Shown: in pieces, positions 6,365 through 15,703 of the stretch
Layout of the letters: every line of letters begins with the position of its first letter
How positions within the stretch are numbered: position 1 is the stretch's first letter
From: Paracoccaceae bacterium
Lineage (GTDB): Bacteria > Pseudomonadota > Alphaproteobacteria > Rhodobacterales > Rhodobacteraceae
DNA length: 34,707 nucleotides
Assembly: GCA_013373325.1 (NCBI GenBank)
Contig: JABXIA010000101.1
Location: 1 to 34,707, forward strand
Direction: 5' to 3'
Notes under the pieces: generated by a model
Told to the model about the DNA's origin: nothing
The model's database searches: none
What the model saw: only the letters and a program-made list of their open reading frames with translations
Made by a program: the position numbers and the translations under genes

Positions 6365-7786
6365 ATGAACGCTCAGGACGCACTCGCCTCCGGCACCGCC
6401 GAGGTGGAACAGATCATGGTGCGCGCCCGCACCGCCCAACGGGGTTTTGAAGCCAAGGGAAGCCAAGCGCTTTATGACAAGGCAGCTCTGGCGGCAGGCT
6501 GGGCCATCATGGAACCCGCCCGCAACCGCGCCCTGGCAGAGCTGGCGGTGGAAACCACCGGCCTCGGCAATGTGGCGGACAAGATCACCAAGAACCACCG
6601 CAAGACGCTGGGACTGCTGCGCGACATTGCAGGTGTCCAAACCCACGGCATCATCAGCGACGACCCGGCATCCGGCATCACCGAGATCATGCGTCCCATC
6701 GGCGTGATCGGGGCCGTTGTCCCCTCGACCAACCCGGCGGCGACGCCTGCCAACAACATCATCAACGCGCTGAAGGGCGGCAATGCCATCGTGGTGGCCC
6801 CCTCGCCCAAAGGCGTCGCCTCCTGCGAGCTGCTGCTTTCCTATATCCACGCCGAATTTGCCAAGCTCGGCTTGGATCCGGATCTGGTGCAGATGATCCC
6901 TGCCCCCGGCTCCAAGGCCAAGACCCAGGCGCTGATGGAAGCCGCCGACCGGGTGATCTGCACCGGCAGCCAGAACAATGTCCACCGCGCCCAGTCCTGC
7001 GGCACCCCCGCCGTGGCCGTGGGCGTCGGCAATGTGACCGTGATCGTGGATGAAACCGCAGACCTTGCAGATGCGGCGGCCAAGATCACCGCCTCCAAGT
7101 GTTTTGACAATGCAACCTCCTGCTCGTCCGAGAATGCAGTGGTTGTGGTGGATGCCATCTATGACCAGTTCATCGCCGCCTTGGCCCGCGAAGGCGGAGC
7201 ACTGGTGCCGGAGGCAGGCGCCGCTGGCATCATCACCAAGCTGTGGCCGGACGGCCATTTGAACCGCAAAGTCATCGCCCAGGACGCAGATAGAATGCTG
7301 GCCGCGCTGGATATGGCGGGCAAGGTCCCGGACGGCACCAGGTTTCTGGCGGTGGAGACCAAGGGCATCGGTCCGGATCACCCGCTGAGCGGGGAAAAGC
7401 TGAGCCGCATCCTCGCCGTCTACCGGGCCGCGGATTACGTAGATGCCAAGGCCATCGCCACCTGTATCCTTACGTATCAAGGGGCCGGGCATTCCATCGG
7501 TATTCACACCGCCCGGGATGAGCGCGCACTTCAAATGGGCCACGACATGCCCACCTGCCGGGTGATCGTCAACCAGGCCCATACCTTCGCCACCGGCGGT
7601 GCCTTCACCAATGGGATGCCGTTTTCGCTGTCGATGGGCTGCGGCAGCTGGGGTGGCAATTCGATCGACACCAACCTCAACTGGCGGCACTTCGTGCAAA
7701 CCACCAAGATCGTGCGCGAAATTCCCGCCCGCGAGCCTGCGCTGGAAGACATCTTTGGCAGCTACTGGGCGGAGGCGGGCCAATGA
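6365..7786 (+). CDS. Acylating (CoA-dependent) aldehyde dehydrogenase, resembling sulfoacetaldehyde dehydrogenase (acylating) SauS
   Basis: 473 aa ALDH-fold protein: GVIGAVVPSTNPAATPANNIINALKGGNAIVVAPSPKG and the catalytic-Cys region FDNATSCSSENAVVVV. Followed by an acyl-CoA ligase, as in sauST. Confidence 0.8.
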   Translation: MNAQDALASGTAEVEQIMVRARTAQRGFEAKGSQALYDKAALAAGWAIMEPARNRALAELAVETTGLGNVADKITKNHRKTLGLLRDIAGVQTHGIISDDPASGITEIMRPIGVIGAVVPSTNPAATPANNIINALKGGNAIVVAPSPKGVASCELLLSYIHAEFAKLGLDPDLVQMIPAPGSKAKTQALMEAADRVICTGSQNNVHRAQSCGTPAVAVGVGNVTVIVDETADLADAAAKITASKCFDNATSCSSENAVVVVDAIYDQFIAALAREGGALVPEAGAAGIITKLWPDGHLNRKVIAQDADRMLAALDMAGKVPDGTRFLAVETKGIGPDHPLSGEKLSRILAVYRAADYVDAKAIATCILTYQGAGHSIGIHTARDERALQMGHDMPTCRVIVNQAHTFATGGAFTNGMPFSLSMGCGSWGGNSIDTNLNWRHFVQTTKIVREIPAREPALEDIFGSYWAEAGQ

Positions 7787-9291
7787 TGGCGCCGCCTAAG
7801 GGGACCATCCGCGACTGGCTGAACACGCGCGCGGCTGAGGGCGGCACCGGCTTTGTCTTTCCGGACGGCGGCCGCGATCTCAGCTGGGCTGAGCTGCGCC
7901 GGACGGCAGATGCCATCGCCCGCTATCTGACCGGCAAAGGCATCGCCAAGGGCGAAAGCATCGCCATCCTGCATCCCAACGGGCGTGAAGCGCTCGAATG
8001 CCTGTTCGGGGTACTCTACGGCGGCTTCCGCGCCACCATGATCAATCTGGTCGCAGGCAACAGCGCGGTGTCTTACGCCCTGGAGCACAGCGGTGCCCGC
8101 TTTGCCTTTGTGCACGCCAGCCAGATGGACCTGTTCGAGCAGACTGCCAGCCTGCCCTTTCTCTCCCCTTTGGACCAGGCGGCAGCAACCGGCGGGTCAC
8201 CGGCAGAGCTGCATCCGCTTTCCGCCGGTGACCACGCCTTGCTGATGTACACCTCCGGCACCACCGGCCAGCCCAAGGGGGTGGTGCATACGCACGCCAG
8301 CCTGCTGGCGGGCGGGTGGACCACCGCCGTGGCGCATGAGCTCACTCCCCAGGACCGCGGCCTCTGCGTGCTGCCGATCTACCATATCAACGGGCTCTGC
8401 GTGACGGTAATGGGCGCGCTGATCTCCGGCGGCTCCCTGGCGATGTGCGCGCGGTTCTCCGCCAGCCGCTTCTGGGCCCATGTCGGCTGGTCAAAGGCGA
8501 CCTGGTTCTCGGTGGTGCCGACCATCATTTCGCACCTGCTGCACTCGGACCTGGACCCCGCCGACAGTACCAAGGCGCGGCTGCGCTTCGGCCGTTCGGC
8601 GTCATCGGCACTGGCCCCGGACGTGCAGCGCGCGTTTGAGAACAGGTTCGACGTCCCTATATTGGAGACCATGGGCTTGACCGAGACGGCGGCCCAGATC
8701 CTGTCAAACCCGCTGCCCCCCGGTATCCGCAAGATTGGCTCGCCCGGCATCGCCTTCGGCAATGAAGTGACGATCCTTGATGCCAAGCTTCAGCACATCA
8801 CTGACGGCAGCGAAGGCGAACTGGCCGTGCGTGGTCCCAACGCGATGCTGGAGTACCTGAACAACCCGGAGGCCACGGCCGCCACCTTCACCCCGGATGG
8901 CTGGCTGCGCACCGGTGACCTTGGGCGGATCGACTGCGACGGCTATGTCTTCGTTACTGGGCGCCTGAAGGAACTGATCATCAAGGGTGGCGAAAATATT
9001 GCTCCGCGAGAAATCGACGAAGCGCTTTACTCCCATCCCGACGTGATCGAGGCAGCCGCCTTCGGACGCCCCTGCAGCAGCTACGGCGAGACGGTGGAGG
9101 CGGCGGTGAAAATCCGCGACGGTTCTGAACTGACCGAAATGGAGCTGATCGAAATTTGCCGGTCTCAGCTCGGGAAGTTCAAAACGCCCGACGGTGTGCA
9201 TTTCCTGAACGAACTGCCCAAAGGCCCTTCAGGGAAAATCCAGCGGAACAAAATACTGGCGGTGATATCCAACACCCTCCGTCCTGTCTAA
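7783..9291 (+). CDS. AMP-forming acyl-CoA synthetase (class I adenylate-forming), candidate sulfoacetate-CoA ligase (SauT-like)
   Basis: Start overlaps the upstream stop (atgatg at 7783). Adenylation motifs LLMYTSGTTGQPKGVVHTH, GWLRTGDLGRID and KGGENIAPREIDEALYSHPDV; C-terminal PKGPSGKIQRNKI. Confidence 0.88.
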   Translation: MMAPPKGTIRDWLNTRAAEGGTGFVFPDGGRDLSWAELRRTADAIARYLTGKGIAKGESIAILHPNGREALECLFGVLYGGFRATMINLVAGNSAVSYALEHSGARFAFVHASQMDLFEQTASLPFLSPLDQAAATGGSPAELHPLSAGDHALLMYTSGTTGQPKGVVHTHASLLAGGWTTAVAHELTPQDRGLCVLPIYHINGLCVTVMGALISGGSLAMCARFSASRFWAHVGWSKATWFSVVPTIISHLLHSDLDPADSTKARLRFGRSASSALAPDVQRAFENRFDVPILETMGLTETAAQILSNPLPPGIRKIGSPGIAFGNEVTILDAKLQHITDGSEGELAVRGPNAMLEYLNNPEATAATFTPDGWLRTGDLGRIDCDGYVFVTGRLKELIIKGGENIAPREIDEALYSHPDVIEAAAFGRPCSSYGETVEAAVKIRDGSELTEMELIEICRSQLGKFKTPDGVHFLNELPKGPSGKIQRNKILAVISNTLRPV

Positions 9292-9422: not shown

Positions 9423-10961
9423 TCAATCGCTGATTGCGCCCTCCTCGTCCCGGCGCTGATGCATCTTGGCTTTGACCCGCGCGCCGACGATCAGCGGCAG
9501 CACAAAACCGATGATGGCGATGGCCCAGAGCGCGATGGCCAGCGGGCTGTCTATCAGCGTCCACCAGTTGCCGTTGTCGATGGTCACGGCACGGCGCAGG
9601 TTGTTCTCCATCGCATTGCCCAAGAGCGTGCCCAGGATGATCGGCACCAGCGGCACATCCAGCTTGCGCAGCACCCAGCCCATGACGCCGAAGCCGATCA
9701 TCACCAGCAGGTCGAAGGTGCTGCCGGAAATGCCGTAGATGCCGACAAAGCTGACCATCGCCACAATCGGCATCAGGATCCGGGAGGGGATCATCAGCAC
9801 GCGGGTGAACAGCCCGACCATCGGGATGTTCATCGCCAGCAGCATGAAGTTGGCAATGAACAGCGCCGCGATGAGGCCCCAGACCACATCCGGGTTCTGG
9901 CTGAACAGCAGCGGGCCGGGTGTGATATTCAGAGCCAGCAGAACCGCCAGCAGAACCGCGGTGGTGCCCGATCCCGGCACGCCCAGCGCCAGCATCGGCA
10001 CCAGCGCGCCACCGGCAGCCGCGTTGTTTCCGGCCTCGGGCGCTGCCACGCCGCGCGGATCCCCGGTGCCGAAGGTGCCTTCTTTGTCGACCAGTTTCTT
10101 TTCCATCGAATAAGAGATGAACGACCCCAGAGAGGCGCCAGCACCTGGCAGAACACCGGCAATAAAGCCTAAAAAGGATGTCCGAAGCATGGTCGGGGTG
10201 GTCTGCCGGATCATTGAAACCGGCGGATACAGCTTGCCGATGGTCAGTTTGCGCCCCGCGGCGTCGGATCCGCCGTGCCGGGTTTCCAGGAAAATAAAGA
10301 CCTCAGACAGGGCGAACAGGCCAACGATGGCAACCAGGAAATCCAGCCCGTCATAAAGATGCACTTCACCAAAGGTGAACCGCGGCACGCCTGTCTGAGT
10401 GTCGACGCCGATGGTCGCCAGACCCAGGCCCAGCGCTGCTGCAAAGGCCGACTTTGCCTGGTTGGTCGAAGAGACGCCGCCCAAGGTCATGAAGGCGAGC
10501 GCAAACAGCGCGAAATACTCCGCCGGGCCGAACAGAAGGGCGATCTTGACCAGCTGCGGCGCCAGCAGGATCAGCCCCCAGGTGGCCAGGAAGGCGCCGA
10601 CGAAAGACGCGATGCCCGACAGTGACAGCGCTTCGCCCGCCAGGCCCTTCTTGGCCATCGGGTGGCCGTCCAGGCAAGTCATCATGGCCGGCTCATCCCC
10701 GGGGATGTTCAGCAGGATCGAACTGATGCGGCCGCCGTACATGGCACCATAGTAGACGCTGGTCAGCAGGATCAGCGAGGGTGTCGCCCCCAACCCCAGG
10801 GTGAAGGCCAGCGGGATCAGGATGGCAACCCCGTTCGACGGCCCCAGCCCCGGCAGCGCCCCCATGATGGTGCCCAGGAAACAGCCCAGCAGCGCGAGGC
10901 CGATGTTCTGCCAGCTGAGCGCGATGGCAAAGCCGTCGCCAAGATTTGCGAGAAGCTCCAT
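9423..10961 (-). CDS. tctA: Second TctA-family large permease subunit
   Basis: 512 aa; GALPGLGPSNGVAILIPLAFTLGLGATPSLILLTSVYYGAMYGGRISSILLNIPGDEPAMMTCLDGHPMA is typical TctA. Confidence 0.95.
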   Translation of the reverse strand: MELLANLGDGFAIALSWQNIGLALLGCFLGTIMGALPGLGPSNGVAILIPLAFTLGLGATPSLILLTSVYYGAMYGGRISSILLNIPGDEPAMMTCLDGHPMAKKGLAGEALSLSGIASFVGAFLATWGLILLAPQLVKIALLFGPAEYFALFALAFMTLGGVSSTNQAKSAFAAALGLGLATIGVDTQTGVPRFTFGEVHLYDGLDFLVAIVGLFALSEVFIFLETRHGGSDAAGRKLTIGKLYPPVSMIRQTTPTMLRTSFLGFIAGVLPGAGASLGSFISYSMEKKLVDKEGTFGTGDPRGVAAPEAGNNAAAGGALVPMLALGVPGSGTTAVLLAVLLALNITPGPLLFSQNPDVVWGLIAALFIANFMLLAMNIPMVGLFTRVLMIPSRILMPIVAMVSFVGIYGISGSTFDLLVMIGFGVMGWVLRKLDVPLVPIILGTLLGNAMENNLRRAVTIDNGNWWTLIDSPLAIALWAIAIIGFVLPLIVGARVKAKMHQRRDEEGAISD

Positions 10962-10973
10962 GCGGCGCCCTCC

Positions 10974-11405
10974 TCAGAAGCCAAGCGGACCCTTGGCCAG
11001 CGACAGGCCGAGGATCAAATGAAAGGTGACATAGATGCCGATGGAAGTGCCGGCGCCCACGGCCACTGTTTCCAGCGGTCCCGATCCCAGGCGCCAGGCC
11101 AGATAGGCGGCGGCAAAAGCGGTAGCGATGACAAAGCCCGCGACCGGCAGCATTTCGGCGTAGAGGATCAGCACCACCACGGCCGCAGCAACTTCTGCCA
11201 GACGTGCCAAGGCGGGCCAGTGCGGCTCGGGGTCCGGGCGCAGCGCGATCACGGCACCCGAAAGGGCGAGGATGGCGGCAATGATCAGGGGAAAGGCCTT
11301 GGGGCCGACAGCATCTGAGAGAAAACTTTCCTCGATCGCAAGCGCGGCAATGACATAGCCGGCGGCAAGGATGATGCCGAAAACCCCGAAGATACGATCG
11401 CTCAT
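10974..11405 (-). CDS. tctB: TctB-family small permease subunit
   Basis: 143 aa hydrophobic protein (MSDRIFGVFGIILAAGYVIAALAIEESFLSDAVGPKAFPLIIAAIL) directly upstream of tctA on the minus strand. Confidence 0.9.
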   Translation of the reverse strand: MSDRIFGVFGIILAAGYVIAALAIEESFLSDAVGPKAFPLIIAAILALSGAVIALRPDPEPHWPALARLAEVAAAVVVLILYAEMLPVAGFVIATAFAAAYLAWRLGSGPLETVAVGAGTSIGIYVTFHLILGLSLAKGPLGF

Positions 11406-11476: not shown

Positions 11477-12454
11477 TTACTTGATTATGCCGATGTCCTT
11501 GGAAATCGACTGGATCTGCGCAACCGAACCGGCCACGAATTCCTGGAAATCCGCCCCCTGCAGGTCCAGCGGCGCCAGGCCGTTGGCGGCCATGACCTCT
11601 TTCCATTCGCCGGAAGCATAGAGGTCGCCGATCTTCGATACCCAGGCATCATAGGCCTCGTCCGACATTCCGCCCGGCGCGTAAAAGCCGCGCCAGTTGG
11701 CTCCAATGGCCTCCACGCCTTGTTCCTTGGCGGTCGGGAAGTCCGCGAACTCACCCGGCAGGCGCTCCGGCGACAGCACTGCGATCACCTTGATGTCACC
11801 AGAGTCCACAAAGCCCTTGGCCTCAGAGATATCGCCAGTGAAGGCCTGCACGGAACCTGCCAGCAACTGGGTCACGGCCTCGCCGCCGCCGTCAAAGGCG
11901 ATGTATTTGACGCTGCGGACGTCCTCGATGCCATAGGCACTGGCCGCGATCAGAACCTTCAGGTGGTCCCAGCCGCCCACCGCGGAACCGCCGGCAACGG
12001 AGACCGAGGTTGGGTCCGCCTTGATGGTGTCCAACAGCTGCGGCAGCGTTTCGACCTCGCTGTCGGCAGACACCGCAATCACACCGTAGTCCGCGCCGAT
12101 CGCCGCCAGCCAGCGCACCTGATCCATGCTGTTGCCCGGATAGGCGCCCTGTGCCAGGCGCGTCGCGGTGGCGCTGGAGGCAGCAACGATCAGGCTGTTG
12201 TCGTCCGAGCGCTTGTTGACCACCTCGGCAAAGGCCACGCCGCCGCCGCCGCCAGCCAGGTTCACCACCTGCATGGTCTTGTCGATCAGTCCCAGATCCT
12301 GCAGCGACTTGCCGACCTGGCGGCAGGTAAAGTCCCAGCCGCCGCCCGGATTGGCCGGGGCGATGCATTCGGGGTTGTCCTGTGCCTGGGCCGCAAACGC
12401 GGACAGCGACAGGGCGGCAGCGGCAACCAGGCCGCGGGTGACGGTAATTTTCAT
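11477..12454 (-). CDS. tctC: TctC-family tricarboxylate-type substrate-binding protein
   Basis: Start ATG (complement) at 12454. Signal peptide MKITVTRGLVAAAALSLSAFAAQA; ECIAPANPGGGWDFTCRQVGKSL is typical of citrate/tricarboxylate TctC. Confidence 0.92.
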   Translation of the reverse strand: MKITVTRGLVAAAALSLSAFAAQAQDNPECIAPANPGGGWDFTCRQVGKSLQDLGLIDKTMQVVNLAGGGGGVAFAEVVNKRSDDNSLIVAASSATATRLAQGAYPGNSMDQVRWLAAIGADYGVIAVSADSEVETLPQLLDTIKADPTSVSVAGGSAVGGWDHLKVLIAASAYGIEDVRSVKYIAFDGGGEAVTQLLAGSVQAFTGDISEAKGFVDSGDIKVIAVLSPERLPGEFADFPTAKEQGVEAIGANWRGFYAPGGMSDEAYDAWVSKIGDLYASGEWKEVMAANGLAPLDLQGADFQEFVAGSVAQIQSISKDIGIIK

Positions 12455-12610
12455 GCGTTCCTCCTCAGGTCGTGGCCGGCGCACTCCCAAGCGCCGGAGA
12501 TCGCCCGCAACAATTCGCTTTGGCAGCTCAGTTTCTGCGGGTTAGACATGTTTACCCATTGAAGCTGTCACCAACCTGTCGCCGGTTTCAGCAAAGCGGA
12601 GCACCATTGA

Positions 12611-13282
12611 ATGCGGGTCTTGATGGTTGAGGATGCAGAGGATCTGGCCGAGGGGGTGACCGCCCACCTGGCCCGTTCGGGAATTGCCTGTGATCTGGCA
12701 CCGGACATCGAAAGCGCCCGCGACTGCCGGGCGGTGCAAGCCTATGACGCGGTGATACTGGACATCAATCTGCCGGACGGCTCCGGCCTGTCGCTGCTGC
12801 GCGAGATGCGCCTGGCGGGCGACCCGGCCCCGGTGCTGATGCTGACGGCGCTGACCTCGGTGGACGACCGGGTGGCAGCGCTGGATCAGGGGGCGGATGA
12901 TTACCTGGGCAAGCCTTTCGACCAGCGTGAACTGGAAGCGCGCCTGCGGGCGCTGGTGCGGCGCCAGATGGAGCGTAAGGATGAGCAGATCGTGCTGGGC
13001 TGCCTGGCCTTTTCGCCCAGCGACCGCAGCGCCCGGCTGGACGGCCGCCTGCTGGAACTGACCCGGCGCGAGGCCGCCCTGCTGGATATGCTGATCCGCC
13101 ATCAGGACCGCTACCTGTCCAAAACGCGGCTTTATGACTCGCTCTATGGTTTCGACGATGCCGATGTGGGCGAGAACGCGATCGAGCTTTACATCGCCCG
13201 CCTGCGCAAGAAGATCGCCGGCAGCGATATCAGCATCAGCACCCAGCGGGGGGTCGGTTACCGGCTGCATCTGAATGGCTGA
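12611..13282 (+). CDS. tctD: OmpR/PhoB-type response regulator, TctD-like
   Basis: Receiver (MRVLMVEDAEDLAEGVTAHLARSG, AVILDINLPDGSGLSLL, KPFD) plus winged-helix output domain. Divergent from tctC. Confidence 0.92.
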   Translation: MRVLMVEDAEDLAEGVTAHLARSGIACDLAPDIESARDCRAVQAYDAVILDINLPDGSGLSLLREMRLAGDPAPVLMLTALTSVDDRVAALDQGADDYLGKPFDQRELEARLRALVRRQMERKDEQIVLGCLAFSPSDRSARLDGRLLELTRREAALLDMLIRHQDRYLSKTRLYDSLYGFDDADVGENAIELYIARLRKKIAGSDISISTQRGVGYRLHLNG

Positions 13283-14666
13283 GCCGCGCCCGCCGCTTAC
13301 GCTGGGGGCCCGGGTGCTGGGGGCGGTTCTGCTGATCCTGCTTCTCGGCGGCGTGCTGGTGTCCGGCTCAGCCTGGCTGAACGGCCAGCAGGCCGCGCGC
13401 CAGGCCTATGACCGCATCCTGCTGGGAGCGGCCAGAGATATCGCCGAGTCGGTCCGGATCCAGGAGGGTGTCCCTGCCGCCGACCTGCCGGTCTCGGCTT
13501 TCCAGCTGCTGGCACAGGCTCCTGACGACCGCATCTATTATGCGGTGCATGGGCCCGGGCAGGCGTTCATAACCGGCGTTGATCCCGAAAGTGAAGTTCA
13601 GGTGCCGCCCCCCGGATCCGGCGGCCCGGATTACTTCGAGGCCCGCCTCAACGGCGAGCCCGCGCGCTTCGTCCGGATCACCCGCCGCTTCGCGGAGCGC
13701 AGCTTCTCCGGCCCAGTCGAGGTTGTGGTCGGCCAAACCCTGCGGGCGCGCAAGGCGATGACATCGGATCTGATGCTGGATGCGCTCCTGCCGATGGCAG
13801 TCGCAGGGCTGGCGCTCATGGCAATGGCCTGGCTGGTGATCCGCACCGCATTGCGCCCGCTGGAGGACATCACCAACGATTTGGCGCGCCGCGACCCCTA
13901 TGACCTGACACCGATTGCCACGGGCCGCCTTCCGCGGGAACTGCAGGTGGTGCTGGGTGCCATGAACCGGTTCATGGGGCGGCTGGACACTCAGGTCGAG
14001 GCGATGCGCAATCTGATCTCCGACACTGCACACCAGCTGCGCACGCCGGTGGCCGCAATGCGCGTGCAGGCGGAAACCGCGGTGGCCGAACCCGGCGAAG
14101 CCGCCCGCCGCAGCGCCCTGGAGCGGCTGCTGGCGCGCACCCGCTCGCTGGGCAGGCTGCTGGACCAGCTTCTCAGCCGTGCGCTGGTGGTGCACCGCAC
14201 CGACAGCGCCCCGCGGCGGCCCGTCGACCTGCGCGAGGTGGCACTGGAGATCATGGAGCGCGATGACCACGCATTGTTGGCCCCCGGCAGCGACCTGCGG
14301 CTGGAGATCGGAGAGGACCCGGTGATGGTGCTGGCCGATGCCTTTTCGCTTGGCGAGGCGGCCGGCAATCTGCTGGGCAATGCGCTCAGGCACGGCACAC
14401 CGCCGGTCGCCATAGGCGCAGAGCAGCGCGGCCGCGAGGCCATCCTGTGGGTGCGCGATGCCGGCCCCGGCCCGGCGCCCGCTGTTACGGAACAGCTCGG
14501 CAGCCGCTTCAACCGCAGCGCCGGCACCCAGGAGAACAGCACCGGCATCGGCCTGTCGATCGTGGCTTCCGTGGCCGCTGCCTTTGGCGGCCGGGTAGAG
14601 ATGGCGAACGAGGACAGCGGCTTCCGCGCGGCCCTGGTTCTGCCCGCTGCGGAGGAGAAACCATGA
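13275..14666 (+). CDS. tctE: Sensor histidine kinase, TctE-like
   Basis: 463 aa; two TM segments; H-box NLISDTAHQLRTPVAAMRVQAE; ATPase motifs NLLGNALRHG and GIGLSIVASVAAAFGG. Start overlaps the response regulator end. Confidence 0.92.
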   Translation: MAEPRPPLTLGARVLGAVLLILLLGGVLVSGSAWLNGQQAARQAYDRILLGAARDIAESVRIQEGVPAADLPVSAFQLLAQAPDDRIYYAVHGPGQAFITGVDPESEVQVPPPGSGGPDYFEARLNGEPARFVRITRRFAERSFSGPVEVVVGQTLRARKAMTSDLMLDALLPMAVAGLALMAMAWLVIRTALRPLEDITNDLARRDPYDLTPIATGRLPRELQVVLGAMNRFMGRLDTQVEAMRNLISDTAHQLRTPVAAMRVQAETAVAEPGEAARRSALERLLARTRSLGRLLDQLLSRALVVHRTDSAPRRPVDLREVALEIMERDDHALLAPGSDLRLEIGEDPVMVLADAFSLGEAAGNLLGNALRHGTPPVAIGAEQRGREAILWVRDAGPGPAPAVTEQLGSRFNRSAGTQENSTGIGLSIVASVAAAFGGRVEMANEDSGFRAALVLPAAEEKP

Positions 14667-15703
14667 TGCGGGCCTGGCAGATGCTGTTGCTCATCGCCGC
14701 TCTGCTGCCGGTTCCCGCCGCCGCGCAGGAGGCGGCCGTGCGATACGGCAGCGGCCCGGTGCCTTTCCTGATCCGTTCCACCACCGACAACAGTGTCATC
14801 CAGCCGGTCATGGAACGCTTTGCGGAATTGAACCCGGATCTGACAATCACCTACGAGCAATGGGGCTCAAACGCGCTTTTTGCCAGGAGCCGCGCGGATT
14901 GCCGGGATGGCAGCCCACCGGCCGACGCGGTGCTGTCCTCGGCCGTGCAGCAAATGGTCTGGCTGGTCAATGCGGCCTGTGCGCAACCGCACCGCTCGCC
15001 CGCGGCACTGGCGCTGCCGCCGTCGCGGCGCTGGCGAGACGAACTGTGGGGGATCACCACCGAACCGGCAGTGATCGTCTACAACAAGCAGCTGCTTGAT
15101 GGGGCCGATGTGCCGCGCAGCCGCTTTGCCCTGCTGGATGCACTGCGCGCCAAACCCGGCTTCTACCGCGGCAAGATCGCCACTTACGACATAGCCGCCT
15201 CCGGTCTGGGCTACCTGTTCGCCTACAGCGACAGCCTGGAAGCCACCACCTTTGGCGCGCTGATGGAGGGCTTTGCCCGGGTTGATGCTGTTGCCACCTG
15301 CTGTTCCGCCGAAATCATCGCTGGCGTTGCGGAGGGCCGGTTTCTGATCGCCTACAACGTCTTGGGATCCTATGTTGCCAACGCCTCCGCGCCGGAGGTC
15401 GGCACCATTCTGCCAGAGGACTACACGCTGGTGCTGTCCCGTGCCTTTATGATCCCCAAGCACGCCGCACAGCGAGGCGCATCTGCAGAGCTGCTCGATT
15501 TTCTGCTGAGCGCCGAGGCGCAAGAGATGCTCGTCAAAGCCGGTCTCGTCGCCGTGATCGAGGAGACCGGCTCCGGGCTTACCGCCAGCGCCCGCAGATA
15601 CATCCCTCTATCACCGTCCCTGCTGGTCGCGCTCGATGCCAACCGGCGCGCGCTTTTGCTCAAGTTCTGGAGCGATACCTTTGGCCAGGGCGCCACACCC
15701 TGA
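14663..15703 (+). CDS. Orphan periplasmic (ABC-type, Fe3+/class-like) extracellular solute-binding protein co-transcribed with the two-component genes
   Basis: ATG 14663 overlaps the kinase stop. Signal peptide MMRAWQMLLLIAALLPVPAAAQ; SBP features ITTEPAVIVYNKQLL and LSRAFMIPKHA...AQEMLVKAG. No ABC permease or ATPase adjacent. Confidence 0.8.
   Translation: MMRAWQMLLLIAALLPVPAAAQEAAVRYGSGPVPFLIRSTTDNSVIQPVMERFAELNPDLTITYEQWGSNALFARSRADCRDGSPPADAVLSSAVQQMVWLVNAACAQPHRSPAALALPPSRRWRDELWGITTEPAVIVYNKQLLDGADVPRSRFALLDALRAKPGFYRGKIATYDIAASGLGYLFAYSDSLEATTFGALMEGFARVDAVATCCSAEIIAGVAEGRFLIAYNVLGSYVANASAPEVGTILPEDYTLVLSRAFMIPKHAAQRGASAELLDFLLSAEAQEMLVKAGLVAVIEETGSGLTASARRYIPLSPSLLVALDANRRALLLKFWSDTFGQGATP

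Follow-up and report, generated by a model that had tools for sequence, protein, structure and literature searches.

An orphan MctA-like solute-binding protein as a probable co-sensor for a TctE-like kinase

What does an ABC-type solute-binding protein (SBP) do when it is encoded in one operon with a response regulator and a sensor histidine kinase, and with no ABC transporter beside it? The question is raised by a 34,707-nt stretch of DNA from a Paracoccaceae bacterium (contig JABXIA010000101.1; hereafter the window), in which three genes on the plus strand diverge from a tctCBA (TTT) importer on the minus strand. The main features are as follows.

12611–13282, plus strand: TctD-like OmpR/PhoB-type response regulator (223 aa; Pfam PF00072, E 8.5e-24; PF00486, E 4e-18)
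13275–14666, plus strand: TctE-like sensor histidine kinase (463 aa; Pfam PF08521 (2CSK_N), E 5e-32; PF00512 (HisKA); PF02518 (HATPase_c))
14663–15703, plus strand: MctA-like secreted SBP without an ABC partner, the proposed kinase co-sensor (346 aa; Pfam SBP_bac_1, E 9e-16)
14663–14728, plus strand: Sec signal peptide of the SBP (about residues 1–22; hydrophobic segment 8–26, AxA-type site)
11477–12454, minus strand: TctC, the SBP of the divergent TTT (Pfam TctC, E 2e-19; start re-placed)
10974–11405, minus strand: TctB (Pfam TctB, E 2e-17)
9423–10961, minus strand: TctA (Pfam TctA, E 5e-148)

The regulator and kinase genes overlap by 8 nt, and the kinase stop and SBP start overlap by 4 nt as ATGA; the latter overlap is possible in 89 of the 118 non-redundant relatives that share the gene order. 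The initial annotation had described three genes with overlapping stops and starts, an ABC-type SBP with a signal peptide and no ABC permease or ATPase nearby, and each of these points was borne out, with a match to SBP_bac_1, a Sec-type N-terminus carrying an AxA-like site and lacking a lipobox, and no ABC gene flanking the operon. The SBP also matched Pfam models of the SBP_bac_6/8/11 type, but not that of TctC. By Pfam and hydropathy the kinase consists of TM1 (residues 14–32), a periplasmic 2CSK_N domain, TM2 (residues 171–189), HisKA and HATPase, and it is the only 2CSK_N protein detected in the host genome. The best NCBIfam model for the regulator was TctD (NF012023) at 197 bits, under the curated 337-bit cut-off for calling an equivalog, while an OmpR-type regulator and a 2CSK_N-HisKA-HATPase kinase adjoining tctCBA together place the pair in the TctD/TctE two-component family. 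The most likely start of tctC is the ATG at 12454, which has a GAGGAGGA-type ribosome site in front of it and is a better candidate than the TTG at 12490. On the far side of the importer, two genes with a 4-nt overlap (6365–9291, plus strand), one aldehyde dehydrogenase/LuxC-like and the other for an AMP-dependent acyl-CoA ligase, are convergent with tctA and end close to it.

The host genome is of the genus Leisingera, and the window SBP is 98% identical to the SBP of Leisingera sp. ANG-M7. Its closest solved relatives are 3c9h (phmmer E 9e-46), an ABC SBP of Agrobacterium tumefaciens, and 7f6e (phmmer E 1e-32), one of the 7f6 series identified by PDB titles as MctA, metal-citrate-binding and Mg-citrate-bound. 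In Foldseek, the AlphaFold2 prediction for the window SBP (pLDDT 91.6) matched 3c9h and 7f6e with TM 0.80–0.87, so that sequence and fold (Foldseek E 1e-28, TM 0.83) both assign it to the MctA-like family. By contrast, the gene of a Thermus relative adjoins those of a permease and an ATPase, and the window SBP lacks this cognate pair; MctA also has SS at the ligand loop where the window SBP has CC. Through printed alignments to the PDB MctA mutants, the mutated ligand positions S26, D28, S79, S164, T199 and Y221 map to T40, D42, S93, S180, S215 and Y237 of the window SBP, four of them identical and two S/T exchanges, so that all six are kept or conservatively changed, and each is kept in 98–100% of 66 non-redundant window-like SBPs. 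The preserved site points to a functional ligand receptor, from which a citrate-like ligand is inferred; citrate, metal-citrate or a similar di/tricarboxylate is a serious candidate, with a likelihood a little short of even. The SBP appears to derive from a protein that once fed a citrate-type ABC importer.

The SBP might then still serve an ABC importer encoded elsewhere, its adjacency to the kinase being incidental: its fold and nearest relatives are those of ABC binding proteins, and relatives with a permease and an ATPase do exist. Homologues came from three taxonomic levels, the host's family (SBP in 73 of 150 genomes), its class (32 of 387) and its phylum (74 of 398), as well as from plasmids and named genome contigs. 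Profiles made from the window genes and from annotated ABC loci served to type about 210 neighbourhoods. Among the 212 SBP occurrences, a raw count that includes close relatives, the kinase was followed by the SBP beside a TTT in 145, the SBP was divergent from the kinase beside a TTT in 19, kinase and SBP shared one ORF in 5, the SBP was kinase-linked with a full TTT not nearby in 15, lay beside a 2-hydroxycarboxylate transporter (2HCT) in 2 and beside a TTT with no kinase found in 1, and was ABC-linked in 25, 6 of which also have a divergent TctDE pair. Reduced to 156 non-redundant SBPs (below 80% identity), the survey comprised 139 that are kinase-linked without an ABC transporter, 16 that are ABC-linked and 1 whose TTT neighbourhood yielded no kinase. 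All of the first 40 neighbourhoods from the host's family have the regulator, and the SBP with the kinase, beside tctC and tctA, the kinase of one (L053) being fused to the SBP. In the SBP tree, a 68-row set (SH-aLRT 99) excludes every ABC-linked SBP and holds all kinase-linked ABC-less SBPs except L204, a locus retrieved close to the end of its contig.

The ABC-linked relatives thus all fall outside the clade of the window SBP, and the linkage to the kinase is stable both inside and outside the host's class. An ABC partner elsewhere was what the initial annotation had named as speaking against its proposal, and none that is cognate was found: the 90.5%-complete host genome contains no close match to the ~586-aa permease of the SBP family, only superfamily matches of 20–27% identity, and the permease loci fetched far enough to judge (contigs C399, C7, C245 and C85) each have their own SBP; loci were also fetched on C209 and on C69, the latter truncated at its contig edge. 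Continued service to a distant ABC importer is therefore highly improbable.

Some surveyed loci deserve mention in their own right. Two paralogous SBPs stand at L185:7338-14469, one in a regulator-kinase-SBP operon and the other in a divergent SBP-permease-ATPase operon, possibly a split of sensor and transporter roles. On a Thermus brockianus plasmid (L071:4890-10308), an MctA-type ABC operon precedes genes for a kinase-like ATP-binding protein and for a different type of response regulator, and in Klebsiella and relatives (L081, L224) the MctA-type ABC operon is also paired with other two-component genes. The 6,689-base contig JAFKDC010000055.1 (L112), whose record names the actinobacterium Enemella evansiae, matches the Rhodobacteraceae-type contig L033 (G002:C55) in length and in its kind of SBP, and so is probably contamination.

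Co-occurrence of the SBP with TctDE across genomes, a check proposed in the initial annotation, turned out in favour of a sensory partnership. In the 150 genomes of the host family, a 2CSK_N kinase is present in 73 of 73 SBP-positive versus 18 of 77 SBP-negative genomes (Fisher 9e-26, a value inflated by phylogeny), and the SBP occurs, with no exception, in 0 of the 59 genomes that lack such a kinase. Across 123 loci, SBP distances correlated with those of the kinase at 0.93 (catalytic part) and 0.87 (sensor domain), with TctC at 0.68 and with TctA at 0.66. Given the kinase, the partial correlation of SBP and TctC fell to 0.03 (93 of 300 permutations as high), while that of TctA and TctC remained 0.86. 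The SBP thus follows the kinase, not TctC, suggesting that kinase and SBP remain paired when the TTT beside them is replaced. Co-variation with the cytoplasmic half of the kinase was at least as strong as with the sensor domain. Co-inheritance of the operon accounts for part of this signal; it fits less well with loci in which SBP and kinase lie in different transcription units yet are kept together.

These data also bear on the idea that TctAB has a second delivery protein in the SBP, which would broaden the substrate range of the TTT, an idea in keeping with the SBP's nearly constant position inside a TTT locus and with Sinorhizobium-type loci, where it is encoded upstream of tctCBA in the same direction. 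Co-variation with TctA or TctC is nevertheless absent once the kinase is accounted for, and the SBP stays with the kinase beside a 2HCT or with no TTT near. In addition, kinase, signal anchor and SBP form a single ORF in five loci, whereas no fusion of the SBP to a TTT part was seen.

L074:4450-6960, kinase-SBP fusion (Azospirillum brasilense Sp7; a single 836-aa CDS in the annotation)
L162:9299-11830, kinase-SBP fusion
L172:7948-10482, kinase-SBP fusion
L183:9526-12003, kinase-SBP fusion
L053:9409-11934, kinase-SBP fusion

Given this preference for the kinase, a delivery role for TctAB is very unlikely. The positions of the fusions on the trees need at least 2–3 origins. Their joint is a signal-peptide-like hydrophobic segment after the ATPase domain, giving an unusual predicted topology in which the C-terminus would return to the periplasm. 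Since the joint could be cut by signal peptidase, the fused proteins may be processed; cleaved or not, the kinase and SBP parts would be made in equal amounts. An AlphaFold2 model of one natural fusion gave confident domains and a non-confident arrangement (pTM 0.64, linker pLDDT ~42). A sixth candidate, L131, was not counted, as its kinase part is out of frame past the first ~130 residues.

A further reading is that ligand sensing by the kinase is direct or runs through TctC, leaving the SBP a passive neighbour or merely a ligand buffer. BctC is a co-sensor for BctE (PMC5812351), and the Pseudomonas aeruginosa kinases AgtS and AruS do not interact with their neighbouring SBPs (PMC11113362), so adjacency of SBP and kinase genes is not proof by itself. 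The host's family also contains SBP-less TctE kinases (L257-L276), which mostly form their own clade (15 rows, support 100) and adjoin a different TTT, recognised by its divergent, long TctA (~675 aa in L257); this type of kinase therefore does not generally need the SBP, and these systems may be the counterpart of the BctCDE arrangement with TctC as co-sensor. In the distance comparison, however, TctC shows no residual co-variation with the kinase sensor domain (partial −0.05), and a passive neighbour would hardly be expected to be kept, fused and tracking the kinase across different transporters. We regard direct or TctC-mediated sensing as unlikely here.

The divergent promoter region contains a candidate operator.

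12565–12580, plus strand: direct repeat CTGTC-N6-CTGTC, proposed TctD operator (1 match in the window versus 0.05 expected)

The 11-bp period of this repeat is usual for OmpR-type regulators. CCTGTCA words are over-represented between tctC and tctD in 66 relatives, and 69 of 108 non-redundant loci have the exact repeat no more than 320 bp upstream of tctD, with an expectation near zero. Where the SBP stands in a separate unit (L170, L179), one repeat lies between regulator and SBP and another before tctC, and at a 2HCT locus (L077) the repeat lies ~50 bp upstream of a porin gene that precedes the 2HCT gene. A genome-wide search for a TctD regulon with the bare repeat gave 16 sites versus 16 in the reversed control, and with the repeat at background only the local site at 12565–12580 is credible. 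The repeat is thus a putative binding site of TctD.

Taking these observations together, we consider it likely that the TctE-like kinase has the orphan SBP as its co-sensor in a three-component sensor, as the initial annotation had proposed; exclusive co-occurrence, a separate clade without ABC-linked members, co-variation that follows the kinase rather than TctC, the fusions, the association with a non-TTT transporter and the kept pocket all point this way, and SBP, kinase and regulator are encoded together with no permease belonging to the SBP. In the proposed mechanism, the SBP, formerly serving a citrate-type ABC importer, would bind a carboxylate in the periplasm, and its liganded state would be read by the 2CSK_N domain of the kinase. 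The kinase would then phosphorylate the TctD-like regulator, which would bind the CTGTC-N6-CTGTC repeat between tctC and tctD and switch on the divergent tctCBA importer and probably also its own operon. The contact between SBP and kinase, its activating or inhibiting direction, the identity of the ligand and the regulation of tctCBA are all inferred in this scheme.

The SBP also has a cysteine pair and a CC motif, both listed in the initial annotation, and all four cysteines (C80, C106, C213 and C214) proved to be present in 66 of 66 non-redundant window-like homologues.

14900–14902, plus strand: SBP Cys80, probable disulphide partner of Cys106 (pairwise co-occurrence in homologues)
14978–14980, plus strand: SBP Cys106 (pairwise co-occurrence with Cys80)
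15299–15304, plus strand: SBP vicinal Cys213-Cys214, directly before Ser215, the equivalent of MctA ligand residue T199 (homologue counts, alignment to MctA mutants)

Of the 156 non-redundant homologues, 76 have both C80 and C106 and none has just one of them, the pattern expected of a disulphide, which the two probably form. The pocket-side CC at 213-214 is found in 107 of 140 non-ABC versus 0 of 16 ABC-linked non-redundant SBPs, and it may form a vicinal disulphide, bind metal or play a structural part. A bolder extension, that a sensor-only clade of formerly ABC-linked, citrate-type SBPs moves with TctE kinases among unrelated carboxylate transporters and that the vicinal cysteines add a metal or redox response, is speculative and in our judgement rather doubtful.

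If the co-sensor role is correct, there would be at least two forms of TctE-type kinase, one that reads the TctC of the transporter itself and another that reads a separate, dedicated receptor, and the latter form would separate sensing from uptake. It would also provide an example of a transport protein turned signalling receptor, a transition that is directly testable given that ABC-linked relatives, a two-paralogue locus and kinase-SBP fusions are all still extant. Many genes annotated merely as 'ABC transporter substrate-binding protein' would thereby gain a function, and the arrangement, found here in a marine bacterium, is kept in many related bacteria. The co-sensor principle itself is already known from HptRSA, PgtABC and BctCDE. 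A search of the open-access literature, with subscription journals outside its scope, found no earlier description of TctDE with an MctA-like SBP, and the family is probably undescribed.

In HptRSA of Staphylococcus aureus, SBP (HptA), kinase (HptS) and regulator (HptR) genes likewise lie beside the non-ABC transporter that they control (uhpT). That system differs from the present one in its ligand, glucose-6-phosphate, its target, UhpT, and its kinase and regulator types. Foldseek with the window SBP also returned PDB 6lkg (TM ~0.7), titled as a two-component signal transduction protein, which is probably HptA. Structures of HptA-HptS show the SBP reporting its ligand to the kinase, the G6P-free and G6P-bound SBP touching different parts of the kinase extracellular domain (reviewed in PMC8774646). 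Salmonella PgtABC likewise encodes a regulator (PgtA), a kinase (PgtB) and a separate sensor (PgtC) together with a transporter (PgtP), and it differs from the window system in ligand and transporter. The PgtB kinase also belongs to a different family from the window kinase. PgtC senses 3-phosphoglycerate and acts on PgtB (PMC11077982). In Bordetella pertussis BctCBA-BctDE and Salmonella TctCBA-TctDE, a TctD/TctE-type pair controls a TTT; in the Bordetella system, the TTT's own SBP acts as co-sensor (PMC5812351). The BctCDE co-sensor is thus of the TctC family, whereas the one proposed here is a second SBP of ABC type, which sets the window system apart from the BctCDE arrangement. On the best explanation, the window system would be a sensor of the HptRSA/PgtABC kind assembled from other parts: a TctDE kinase and regulator, an MctA-type SBP, and carboxylate importers as targets.
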